Positions 32,930-40,700 of a DNA stretch of 64,000 bases are shown here, piece by piece (within the stretch, counting starts at the first letter, position 1; each line of letters opens with the position of its first letter). The position numbers were made by a program, and so were the translations under genes. Under the pieces are notes generated by a model. The model made no database searches. It saw only the letters and a list, made by a program, of their open reading frames with translations, and was not told the origin of the DNA. The stretch comes from Sporomusa malonica. Lineage in GTDB: Bacteria; Bacillota; Negativicutes; Sporomusales; Sporomusaceae. The stretch is taken from positions 154,187 through 218,186 of the forward strand of contig NZ_FWXI01000007.1 in the NCBI RefSeq assembly GCF_900176355.1, in the 5' to 3' direction.

Positions 32930-33808
32930 GTGGTGGACATTCAAGTAGGTGACCTGGTCGTCAGGAAATCTCACGGCGGTGATATTGTTTTCAAAGTAGT
33001 TGATATTTTTGTTGATGATAGTGCGCAGACGCATTGTGTTTTAAAAGGCCTTCATCTTCGGTTAATGGCCGACTCGCCCATAGATGATTTACAGCGAATT
33101 GCGGCTGAGGATTTGCGGAATGAGATTGTACGCATGGAAGGTATGCACAATGATACGCTAAAGAGGGTTATGGTACGCCGCAGTCGTGAACGGGAGCAAG
33201 TCGAGCTAAGGCGATCTGAGGCAACCAAGAAGTTTAGTTTTTTTGATTTACCTGGCCGGGTATTACATCTTGATGGTGATGAGGAATATCTAAAAATGTG
33301 CTTGAAAACCTATAGTCAGCTTAACGTTCAGGCAGAAGGACGATGGATAGAAGAAGCTAAGCAGGCTGAGGTCGTCCTTGATTTATTAGATGAGATTAGG
33401 CCTGATATTCTAGTACTTACCGGACATGACGCGCTGGTGGGCAACGGCAAAAAAGACCTGAGTGACCTTAATAACTATCGCAACTCCAAACATTTTGTGG
33501 CGGCAGTAAAAAAGGCCAGGACATTTGAGCCTTCACGTGATGATCTGGTTATCTTTGCTGGAGCCTGTCAATCCCACTTTGAGGCCATTTTGTCATCGGG
33601 TGCAAATTTTGCCAGTTCACCTAACCGTATTTTTATTCATGCGTATGATCCGGTTTTTATTGCTGAGAAGGTGGCTTTTACCCCAATAAACAAGACTGTT
33701 GATGTAAGTGATGCTATTACGGCTTCGGTAACTGGCGTTGACGGCGTAGGCGGCCTTGAAACAAGAGGGAAATTCCGCCTGGGAATGCCCAAGACTCCAA
33801 TCAGATAA
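32930..33808 (+). CDS. yabG: Sporulation-specific protease YabG
   Basis: A 292-residue cysteine protease of the YabG family (MEROPS U57). The N-terminal VGDLVVRKSHGGDIVFKVVDI, the central RVLHLDGDEEYLKMCLKTY, PDILVLTGHDALV and VIFAGACQSHFEAILSSGANFASSPNRIFIHAYDP segments match the family (listed here as separate motifs). YabG processes coat proteins in Bacillus and cortex-lytic proteins in C. difficile. It starts with GTG after AAGGGGGG. Its presence is strong evidence for sporulation. Confidence 0.95.
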   Translation: MVDIQVGDLVVRKSHGGDIVFKVVDIFVDDSAQTHCVLKGLHLRLMADSPIDDLQRIAAEDLRNEIVRMEGMHNDTLKRVMVRRSREREQVELRRSEATKKFSFFDLPGRVLHLDGDEEYLKMCLKTYSQLNVQAEGRWIEEAKQAEVVLDLLDEIRPDILVLTGHDALVGNGKKDLSDLNNYRNSKHFVAAVKKARTFEPSRDDLVIFAGACQSHFEAILSSGANFASSPNRIFIHAYDPVFIAEKVAFTPINKTVDVSDAITASVTGVDGVGGLETRGKFRLGMPKTPIR

Positions 33809-33900: not shown

Positions 33901-33903
33901 TGA

Positions 33904-33932
33904 AAAATACGCCATTCTAGGCGTATTTTTTT
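33904..33932 (+). terminator. Terminator after yabG and repeat C
   Basis: AAATACGCC pairs with GGCGTATTT around ATTCTA, followed by T's. Confidence 0.8.
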
Positions 33933-34004
33933 GACGATTGCTGCAGGGACGGGCTGCTGTGTTAGCGAACTATATGTACGTAATTTGGATATGGAGGCGT
34001 TGAG

Positions 34005-35798
34005 GTGCCAAAACCTAAGGAAAGTCAAACCGGCCGGGCTACACGGAAGTCTGCCGGAGTATTTTATACGCCTGAACATATTGTGAATTACATTCTAGAC
34101 CGTACGTTGGGCAAGCATGATATCGTGACAGACCCGGCGCCCAAGGTGCTAGACCCAGCCTGTGGGTCAGGTAACTTTTTAGTAGCTGCATATGATGTCC
34201 TATGGGGCAAGCTTAACGAAAACCTAATCCTCCTGCAGCGCCGGTATGCCAAAGAACAATATAGTATAAAAAGCGGCAACATCGAAACCTGTATGACCGG
34301 TAATCAATATTGGCAGCCGGAAAATTTGCACTATCATATTATCAACTGTTGCTTATATGGCGCAGATGTTGACGAAGCTGCAGTTTCAGTAGCTAAGTCC
34401 CGGCTGCAAGAAAAAGCGATACCGCAGACTGTGGTAGGTCTGGTTGATGATAATTTGGTTGTCTGCGACAGTTTGATCAAATGGGAAGGCCCTTCGGCTG
34501 CCCAGGTTCCAGACTCTGGCAGCGAGGGTATTAGCTATAAGCTTACATTGGCTGAATTTTGGCAGCAGAAGTTTGACTATATTGTTGGCAATCCGCCGTA
34601 TATAAGTTTTGGTCTTAACCGGGTCGGTAAAATACCAATTGTTCAGTCTGATTATCTAAGGCACAATTACCCATACTCAGCCCAGTATAAGCTCAGTTAT
34701 TACGCTTTATTTTTTGAAAGAAGTATCAAGGCACTCAAGTTAGGGGGCTACTTGGGATTTATTACGCCTGACAGCTACTTGCTTGGTCGTTATTACTCCA
34801 AGATTCGTGAATATATATTAGAGACTTGCAGAGTACAGGAAATCACATTGGCAAGTAGTAATGTATTTGCTGGCGTTTTAGTAGGGATTCCCGCCATTAC
34901 TATTCTACAGAAAGCTGACAATGACTGCTCGACTGCGGTTGTAACGGTGACTCGGTTGGGCACCGACGGGGTGCCTGTGACCCGGTATCAATATGAGCAG
35001 AATTATTTTATGCAGCAGGTTTATAAAAGGTTCCGTCTGTTTTTTCATGCACGCGATAAGGAAATCATTGATAAGCTTGAGCAAACGCCGTGCTTACTCA
35101 AAGACATCACAAAAATTCGGACAGGGATGCGCTCACTAACTGTCCAGGCTGAGATTAAAAGTAAAACCAGGCAGGGTAATACCTGGATGAAGGGCTTGAT
35201 ATCATCAGGCCAGATACGGCCGTTTTGTCTTGCCTATCAAGGTGACTGGCTTGACGTTAACCCGGCAAAGCTCAACAAGGGTGGCTGGGAGGCGGCGATT
35301 ATAGCTGGGCCGAAAATATTTATGCGACAGACAGGTGACAGTCTAATTGCTGCAATTGACCGGTCTGGCTTATATCATTTAAACAATATTCACTCGCTGA
35401 CGGTATTACAGGACGGAGTTAGTCTGGAATATCTAGTGTGTATTCTTAATTCCAGGCTGATGAACTATTACTACCATACTGTGACCTTGGAAAAGGGGCG
35501 CGCTATGGCACAAGTGGACATTGAAACCGTGGAAAAGCTGCCATTACGAATAGATAAGCAGTGCCAGGAGCGGTTGGCGTTGCTGGGAATAAAACTGTCA
35601 AAACTGGCTGCTGCTGTTTATTTGGGAGAGGCGGAGGAGACGGCAGATTCTGCAGTTGCTGCCGATGAACTGGGTGCTTTGTATAATGAGATGAATACTT
35701 TGGTGTACAAGATATACGGCCTAACCGAAAGCGAGATCACATATATTGAGCAGGCTAATGCTGAAAACACCATTACCAAATTCCGCAAGTTATGGTAA
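34005..35798 (+). CDS. Orphan N6-adenine DNA methyltransferase, CamA-like
   Basis: A 597-residue class I DNA methyltransferase. It has SAGVFYTPEHIVNYIL, SAM motif LDPACGSGNF (about 49-58), INCCLYGADVDEAAVSVAK, and catalytic NPPY at 196-199. A C-terminal target-recognition region of the Eco57I/TaqI type follows, with VCILNSRLMNYYYHT. No restriction enzyme is adjacent. The N-terminal third matches, from memory, the layout of C. difficile CamA (GIYYTPKIIVDYIV..., CIYGADIDEKAI), the orphan methylase needed for normal sporulation, and the gene lies directly after yabG. GTG start with GAGG upstream. Confidence 0.85.
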   Translation: MPKPKESQTGRATRKSAGVFYTPEHIVNYILDRTLGKHDIVTDPAPKVLDPACGSGNFLVAAYDVLWGKLNENLILLQRRYAKEQYSIKSGNIETCMTGNQYWQPENLHYHIINCCLYGADVDEAAVSVAKSRLQEKAIPQTVVGLVDDNLVVCDSLIKWEGPSAAQVPDSGSEGISYKLTLAEFWQQKFDYIVGNPPYISFGLNRVGKIPIVQSDYLRHNYPYSAQYKLSYYALFFERSIKALKLGGYLGFITPDSYLLGRYYSKIREYILETCRVQEITLASSNVFAGVLVGIPAITILQKADNDCSTAVVTVTRLGTDGVPVTRYQYEQNYFMQQVYKRFRLFFHARDKEIIDKLEQTPCLLKDITKIRTGMRSLTVQAEIKSKTRQGNTWMKGLISSGQIRPFCLAYQGDWLDVNPAKLNKGGWEAAIIAGPKIFMRQTGDSLIAAIDRSGLYHLNNIHSLTVLQDGVSLEYLVCILNSRLMNYYYHTVTLEKGRAMAQVDIETVEKLPLRIDKQCQERLALLGIKLSKLAAAVYLGEAEETADSAVAADELGALYNEMNTLVYKIYGLTESEITYIEQANAENTITKFRKLW

Positions 35799-35801
35799 TA
35801 A

Positions 35802-35838
35802 AGCAAAAGAGGGCGTCGGTAGACGTCCTCTTTTGCTT
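35802..35838. terminator. Terminator after the methyltransferase
   Basis: AAGCAAAAGAGGGCGTC pairs with GACGTCCTCTTTTGCTT with one mismatch. It also sits at the 3' end of the minus-strand gene at 35854-36021 and may serve both. Confidence 0.75.
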
Positions 35839-35853
35839 GTCCTGTATAGAGTT

Positions 35854-39360: not shown

Positions 39361-39388
39361 CTTGATAAAAATTGTTGATAAAGCAAGA

Positions 39389-39421
39389 AAAATCCCGGGG
39401 GCTCAAAGCTGCCGGGATTTT
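39389..39421 (+). terminator. Second terminator-like hairpin before the HipA-like gene
   Basis: AAAATCCCGG pairs with CCGGGATTTT around a 13-base loop. It lies inside the upstream extension of the next frame, which argues for the later start at 39450. Confidence 0.6.
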
Positions 39422-39449
39422 GGAGATAATGGGGAGAGGAGTTGGCCGG

Positions 39450-40253
39450 ATGTTTCGGGCTGTAGAATATATAGGCCCAGTAGGGCTGGGGGCGACGTCA
39501 CCCCAACTATTCCGGGCCGAAAACAGTCATGGCGACAGTAAGGTGTGTGTTGTTAAACTGTCGGCCAATCGCCTTGGTGCTAAAGTTCTGGTAAATGAAT
39601 TATTAGCTGCCCAGTTTGGCTGTTGGCTAAATCTGTGTTTTCCGCCAGGGGGCCTTATCAAGATTTCCTCAGAAGTCCTTGCCGGCAGCAGGCGGCTGAC
39701 TGCTGCCGGCGTGCTCCCGGGTTGGCACTTTGGTTGTGAGTATCTAAAAGGGGCAGGGTATGTAACTAAGTTCAACTTGCACCGGGCAGTAAATAAAGAA
39801 CAAATGGCGGGAGTTATGCTGTTTGATCACCTGTTCCACAATCCTGACCGTACAGAGAATCGCAAAAACCTGCTGATTCGCAAAGAACAAGATGGTTATA
39901 AAATATATGCTATTGACAATTCTCACCTATTTCGTCGTGGCAAATGGACCATTGAAATGCTTAAACAATTGACTGATAGTATAACACTAAATCACCGTCG
40001 GTCGTACGGTGTGCTTTTGAAGTATTATCTTAAACCAACGCATTTTTTTAAGTATGTTCAAATTGTTAAGAATATCAAGGATGCTGAGCTTTCGGAGTTT
40101 ATGGAGAGTATACCAGGCGAGTGGTTACCAGATCTGGGTGAACGGCAGGCATTACAAGAGTTTATTACCGCGCGGCGCGACAAGGTCGATTGGGTGATGC
40201 GCCGACTCACTGATTTAATCCCTAATATAAATCGGAGTGCCAACATTCACTAA
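39450..40253 (+). CDS. HipA-like kinase domain protein
   Basis: A 267-residue protein of the stand-alone HipA-like kinase type (HipA_2). Features are an N-terminal glycine-rich VGLGATSPQLFRA, KVCVVKL (Lys), FDHLFHNPDRTENRKNLLI (catalytic HxxDR..N pattern) and YAIDNSHLF (metal-binding Asp). No HipB partner is adjacent, so a toxin-antitoxin role is not supported. The start at 39450 follows AGAGGAG by nine bases. Its 3' end overlaps the convergent ykuD-type gene by 39 bp. Confidence 0.78.
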   Translation: MFRAVEYIGPVGLGATSPQLFRAENSHGDSKVCVVKLSANRLGAKVLVNELLAAQFGCWLNLCFPPGGLIKISSEVLAGSRRLTAAGVLPGWHFGCEYLKGAGYVTKFNLHRAVNKEQMAGVMLFDHLFHNPDRTENRKNLLIRKEQDGYKIYAIDNSHLFRRGKWTIEMLKQLTDSITLNHRRSYGVLLKYYLKPTHFFKYVQIVKNIKDAELSEFMESIPGEWLPDLGERQALQEFITARRDKVDWVMRRLTDLIPNINRSANIH

Positions 40254-40700
40254 GGCAAACAACTCTTCGGCATGGGCATTATGCATCCGGACACAACCGT
40301 TGGATACCATCTGGCCGATAAACCAAGGGGCATTTGTGCCATGTAAGCCATACGCGTCATAATTAAGACCCATCCAGCGGGTGCCGAGAACGCCGCCTGG
40401 GTTCATAATCTTAGTGGCAATTGCATAATTGCCAAGCGGTGTGGGTGTGGTTGGTTTGCCGATTGCGACAGGATATTGACGCACAGGGCTGTTGCCGTCA
40501 AATAGTGTTAGCTGACGCTGCGACCTTGCAATTAGTATATTTGCTCTAGGCAGGACCAATTTAGCTCTGTCAGTACAAAGAACAGGTGTCACTTCGCTCA
40601 CTGTGGCAGGTTGGTTTTGACAGTAGCTGATGAAGCTCTCTCCTTCAGGCAACGTGATGGTTTTTAGCGATTCAGGGAGATAGATCATTCTGACATGCAT
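40215..40700 (-). CDS. L,D-transpeptidase (YkuD domain)
   Basis: A 161-residue cysteine transpeptidase that makes 3-3 peptidoglycan cross-links. The catalytic motif is H120-G...SNGCVRMHN, with the nucleophile C136. LGTRWMGLNYDAYGLHGT and TPTPLGNYAI fit the YkuD domain. A LysM-like segment may lie at the N-terminus (about 1-50), but no signal peptide is visible, so it may be spore-associated or loaded inside the mother cell. It overlaps the end of the convergent HipA-like gene. Confidence 0.88.
   Translation of the reverse strand: MHVRMIYLPESLKTITLPEGESFISYCQNQPATVSEVTPVLCTDRAKLVLPRANILIARSQRQLTLFDGNSPVRQYPVAIGKPTTPTPLGNYAIATKIMNPGGVLGTRWMGLNYDAYGLHGTNAPWFIGQMVSNGCVRMHNAHAEELFALVNVGTPIYIRD

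Follow-up and report, generated by a model that had tools for sequence, protein, structure and literature searches.

The gene at positions 34005..35798 (+ strand) of the window (the whole stretch of 64,000 nt from Sporomusa malonica) is predicted to encode an N6-adenine DNA methyltransferase, which is probably a core orphan chromosomal methylase of the Sporomusa order that works without a partner nuclease and was likely domesticated from a Type IIG-like enzyme; if its marks are regulatory, sporulation genes would be the first place to look for their effect. The ORF is intact (597 aa), begins with GTG and is preceded by GGAGG (33993..33997, +), a likely ribosome-binding site. The Pfam analysis identified Eco57I (PF07669, 4.5e-27), N6_Mtase (PF02384, 7e-18) and TaqI_C (PF12950, 6.3e-17) domains, the last one a TaqI-like target-recognition domain (residues 403-514; 35211..35546, +), and revealed no nuclease domain in the 597-aa chain, in which 13 residues precede the methylase part. 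The initial annotation had pointed to the layout of the motifs YTP (residues 21-23; 34065..34073, +), DPACGSGNF (cofactor binding, residues 50-58; 34152..34178, +) and NPPY (catalytic, residues 196-199; 34590..34601, +), and to an N-terminal likeness to CamA of Clostridioides difficile, and both observations were confirmed. All three adenine-methylase motifs are intact, with Y21-P23, D50, C53, G54, G56, F58 and N196-Y199 invariant in a 49-row methylase alignment. CamA was the top PDB match in the sequence search (145.7 bits; second match BseCI, 33.7 bits) and in the fold search alike, and the structure prediction (pLDDT 86.3) exhibits the CamA-type fold over its full length. The gene is single-copy in its genome (5.19 Mb in 66 contigs, 6.11% listed contamination), and a second, weak Eco57I-type match (30.1 bits) is located elsewhere in the same assembly. 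The close relatives that carry a species name come from Sporomusa, with 67% identity for S. termitida, 63% for S. carbonis and 62% for S. ovata; a scan of genome contigs with the window protein as a query confirmed no close relatives.

The methylase stands alone, as had been claimed: the PADLOC scan recognised no restriction nuclease among 10 nearby ORFs, and inspection by eye of the ORFs around the methylase in seven loci of its relatives revealed no linked nuclease. Two assignments to known defence systems were rejected. The BREX-1 profile gave 82.7 bits against a cut-off of 500, PglX/BrxX proteins are about 1,200 aa long compared with 597 aa here, and no BREX match was found among the 10 ORFs scanned. 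The profile of the MADS methylase MAD2 gave 44 bits against a cut-off of 720, and the nearby matches to the mad3/mad8 and mad4 profiles are a transporter-like ATPase (by eye) and ribonuclease M5.

The initial annotation took the gene for an orphan methylase and, by its likeness, considered it a possible orthologue of CamA; the former part stands, while the latter fell once the sampling was broadened. In the first tree (84 rows) the window-type methylases grouped with CamA (support 98/88), and two AU tests on this tree left both groupings standing, one clade of the Negativicutes-type rows (p 0.226) and Sporomusa joined with CamA (p 0.33). For the broader tree, 32 proteins were hand-picked from 119 found with L116 as a query and 18 long-branch or near-duplicate rows were taken out of the first set; 12 further rows were removed for a long-branch check. 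The methylase P0280, named from C. botulinum, was left out of the trees, and the Negativicutes-type rows include metagenome proteins and P0036, named from a Patescibacteria MAG. The broader tree separates the window-type methylases from CamA, and the AU test rejects one clade with CamA (p-AU 0.0005), one clade of CamA with all Negativicutes-type rows (p-AU 1.15e-5) and, with the long branches removed, again one clade with CamA (p-AU 5.2e-62). One clade of all Negativicutes-type rows was not rejected (p-AU 0.566, with a likelihood 4.4 higher), and the support for their single origin is only 59/94. The target-recognition domain is on average 20% identical to that of CamA (64 Sporomusa-CamA pairs); the corresponding domain of CamA is 54% identical to that of its own nearest kin. 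Orthology with CamA, through inheritance or through transfer between Clostridia and Negativicutes and with CAAAAA as the shared target and a shared part in sporulation, would agree with CamA being the best PDB match by sequence and fold, with the result of the 84-row tree and its AU test, and with the BLASTP matches of CamA among the relatives of the window methylase, of which the 41 best listed are all of the Sporomusa, 650-aa or 700-aa types. We nonetheless regard it as very improbable, since the broader tree and its three AU tests split the two enzymes, the recognition domain is much closer to that of Type IIG-like rows (48% versus 20% identity), and the neighborhood differs, with camA preceding patatin- and PtsI-like genes (labels assigned by us) in 9/9 loci.

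CamA itself has been described as rare among other bacteria (PMC8187626) and as specific to C. difficile (PMC13395437). Among the camA loci L090-L098, those of CamA relatives from Romboutsia, Intestinibacter and a Clostridium MAG (51-67% identity) keep the patatin- and PtsI-like genes (again our labels) found downstream in C. difficile in 6/6 loci; therefore, camA looks like a gene of family-level distribution in Peptostreptococcaceae and not like one specific to C. difficile. The search of the phylum sample (398 genomes) with CamA as a query gave 10 matches, of which one, from the genome G647, is 41% identical over most of its length. This gene (L126:9842-11650; 40-41% in our comparisons) is situated about 600 nt upstream of the SpoIIAB gene, followed by the SigF and SpoVAD genes, and is a second CamA-superfamily methylase adjoining sporulation genes. 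The same sample searched with the window protein gave 10 matches with E ≤ 1e-15, the best of them outside the window's genome scoring 135 bits.

The trees and the recognition domain suggest that the family likely descends from Type IIG-like enzymes. The long Type IIG-like Eco57I/TaqI_C proteins P0056, P0062 and P0065 (900-950 aa) share the type of recognition domain with the window methylase (48% identity), although these rows were collected with the window protein as a query, which may favour similar recognition domains; P0056 is 42% identical to it across the methylase and recognition domains. They differ in the region ahead of the methylase, which comprises about 340 residues and is HSDR_N-like (P0065 over the Pfam cut-off; P0056 just under it, 23.3 vs 25.1 bits; P0062 also just under), compared with the 13 residues of the window protein; the nuclease domain in the same chain, by which Type IIG enzymes are defined, is absent from the latter. 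No counterpart of the N-terminal part of P0056 was found in 14/14 genomes, where the matches are confined to P0056 from residue 329 on. A recognisable Type IIG connector in the 650-aa members of the family was sought and rejected: the HMM of their N-terminal ~110 residues matched no protein outside the family, and by eye only a short LGxIYE before the methylase is alike. The ancestor would have been a Type IIG-like restriction-modification enzyme that lost its nuclease part and kept the target-recognition domain. A Type IIG-like methylase gene of Proteinivorax (L125:8450-11155, G392) ends at an inserted transposase gene, with a large ATPase gene nearby, and is perhaps a decayed defence locus.

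Restriction-modification systems are a commonly assumed origin of orphan methylases. The window gene could alternatively be the modification half of a split system with the nuclease encoded elsewhere, or a methylase protecting against incoming Type IIG systems, as the presence of nuclease-type N-termini in the nearest outgroups (HSDR_N over the cut-off in P0065) may suggest. This is improbable in our view, since the gene occurs once per genome and in a conserved block across families (see below), in contrast to the remaining Eco57I-type genes of these 14 genomes, whose number and length are variable, since no counterpart of the N-terminal part of P0056 was found in these genomes, and since the recognition domain is conserved; a nuclease that is unlinked or unrelated would, however, have escaped these comparisons. 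The recognition domain is more similar than the catalytic core in 28/28 Sporomusa pairs (79 vs 62% identity) and in 105/105 pairs of the 650-aa type (67 vs 55%); the same trend is weaker in CamA and in the HSDR_N-type group (+7 points each) and reversed in a second Type IIG-like group, where the recognition domain is less conserved than the core. The dN/dS ratio of the methylase is 0.195-0.213 in three close pairs (yabG: 0.01-0.10) and 0.05-0.11 in three distant pairs, in which dS is saturated. A target that stays fixed is more in line with an orphan mark than with a restriction system that diversifies. In the reading we prefer, a restriction-type enzyme was probably turned into a core orphan methylase, as a parallel to CamA.

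Homologs of the methylase (E ≤ 1e-20) were found in 25/28 sampled genomes of the Sporomusa order, i.e. the gene is conserved in the lineage and not patchy; the three genomes lacking a match are assemblies that are 58, 72 and 87% complete. Each positive genome contains one methylase (in G018 one gene in two pieces), and YabG is present in all 28. In a sample of 300 genomes of Negativicutes the methylase was found in 33 and YabG in 54, the 33 being all within the 54, which corresponds to 33/54 yabG-bearing and 0/246 yabG-lacking genomes (Fisher p 5e-30, with the genomes treated as independent, which they are not). This sample consists of two draws, one for the methylase and one for YabG, which agree wherever genomes were listed, and in the search for the methylase no more than four candidates were scored in each genome. 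When the 21 yabG-bearing genomes without the methylase were searched again with all candidates scored, no close homolog was detected, only weak matches in four of the genomes (best 58.9 bits); hence, sporulation in the class does not require the methylase. The best argument for a sporulation role is that none of the 246 YabG-lacking genomes has the gene, and the best argument against it is that 21 YabG-bearing ones lack it as well; the link to yabG-bearing genomes may stem from shared ancestry, in a single event or a few.

The position of the methylase directly after yabG, also noted initially, is correct: the gene of this sporulation peptidase (32930..33808, +; TIGR02855, 362.6 bits vs a cut-off of 270.4) ends 196 nt upstream. 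The conservation of this neighborhood holds in part. The methylase follows yabG in 9/9 loci of Sporomusa and its sister genus (the window and L012-L019), two of them with an insert inside or after yabG, and in nine other families it is found instead in a QueC-FolE2-MTase-ChbG block; yabG was not found in the stretches read around the tenth locus of the family (G002) or around 15 loci of other families of the order. Between yabG and the methylase of the window there is a terminator-like hairpin followed by a T-run (33903..33932, +; -12.3 kcal/mol), which is absent from the listing of the terminator scan of the window, and a strong hairpin is located directly 3' of the methylase stop codon (35800..35841, +; -29.4 kcal/mol). 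Similar hairpins between the two genes were seen by eye in L012, L018 and L019 and none in L014, L015 and L017 (L013 and L016 were not judged). Co-transcription with yabG was considered, and the hairpins speak against it in the window and in the three loci that share them. Because hairpins flank the methylase, it is probably its own transcription unit in the window, and therefore its adjacency to yabG alone says little about function.

Several of the yabG-linked loci carry additional genes. In L013:4916-8769 (G011) an element splits yabG near codon 250-257 and leaves the 3' part of the gene just before the methylase; the element encodes a large serine recombinase (CcrB/XisF-like, but below those cut-offs) and, by eye, a deacetylase-like protein, and it resembles elements of the skin type as well as yin, an element that PMC10747680 reports within the yabG gene of C. 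botulinum. In L016:7010-9986 (G009) the region from the intact yabG to the methylase contains two genes labelled by eye, one with collagen-like repeats and one deacetylase-like, and a degenerate second 3' end of yabG, and is perhaps the trace of an element similar to that of L013. A HipA-like kinase (PF20613; PADLOC candidate PDC-M66A) is encoded at 39372-40253 of the window and in 7/8 yabG-linked loci of relatives, and the counterpart of the window gene 40215-40700 is split by about 2.5 kb in L015:16742-19752 (G006).

The methylases of the 650-aa type (13 loci inside the order and eight outside) reside in the block QueC-FolE2-methylase-ChbG-LPG-synthase-like-epimerase-ArnT, in which the labels ArnT, epimerase and LPG-synthase are what we take these genes to be. 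At least one block gene is next or close to the methylase in 21/21 loci of the nine families, in 16 of them the gene called immediately upstream is FolE2, and in 18 a downstream position is taken by ChbG or the LPG-synthase-like gene, some gaps in these counts being due to the ORF filter or contig ends. Profile searches of one block locus confirmed LarE, LarB, LarC, QueC and FolE2, and its ChbG scored best as HpnK, below the HpnK cut-off. The loci of G002, G012 and G013 belong to neither setting; in the latter two, other genes follow FolE2. Five genomes of the Sporomusa family keep the block, but the place of the methylase is taken by nothing more than a short ORF of 103-158 aa on the opposite strand. 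This ORF (e.g. L149:8342-8659) has a Ser/Thr/Gly/Ala-rich tail and fills the FolE2-ChbG gap, alike in 4/5 family genomes read. In five spore formers lacking the methylase FolE2 adjoins ChbG. Thus, in the Sporomusa lineage the methylase gene was either relocated to yabG or replaced there.

In the loci of the other families, the block contained no recognisable sporulation gene. This, together with the 21 yabG-bearing genomes without the methylase and the hairpin that separates the two genes in the window, would fit a core orphan methylase with a general role (replication timing, repair or expression during growth) and no tie to sporulation, the links to yabG being by-products of ancestry. We consider such a role a real possibility, albeit not a probable one; the absence of the methylase from every yabG-lacking genome of the class sample argues against it.

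A role of the orphan methylase in sporulation is plausible from these data. By analogy to CamA and from its fold, the predicted reaction is the flipping of an adenine within a conserved motif and its methylation at N6 with AdoMet. The motif would be common to the family and is probably not CAAAAA, and the marks may alter the binding of regulators at promoters; judging solely from the distribution of the gene, sporulation genes would be the first place to look for such an effect. We speculate further, and hold it rather unlikely in this complete form, that a Type IIG enzyme independently became an orphan methylase steering sporulation via a non-CAAAAA promoter motif, i.e. a second, convergent CamA-like control in diderms. 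If the marks do influence sporulation, orphan methylation would have become tied to spore formation convergently and would be no oddity of C. difficile, and this tie could be studied in non-pathogenic acetogens.

Dam and CcrM are conserved orphan methylases of other lineages and belong to other enzyme classes. The window enzyme is of the same kind as these and as the orphans surveyed in PMC4752239, namely a nuclease-free chromosomal methylase kept by a lineage; the main text of that survey does not mention Sporomusa, Pelosinus, Acetonema or Dendrosporobacter, and our literature search, with most subscription journals outside its reach, found no paper on an orphan methylase of Sporomusa or Negativicutes. 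Activity, motif and a role in sporulation have been demonstrated for CamA alone (PMC8187626, PMC13395437), the methylation of one spoIIE promoter site being reported to promote sporulation in C. difficile (PMC13395437); for the window enzyme activity is predicted, and a role in sporulation would be a possibility. CamA (PDB 7LNI/7LT5; PMC8187626, PMC13395437) differs from it in clade, in neighborhood and in the recognition domain (~20% identity). Thus, a lineage of spore formers far from C. difficile has its own order-wide orphan methylase, with the fold of CamA and another descent, which likely provides a separately evolved case for probing DNA methylation in sporulation.
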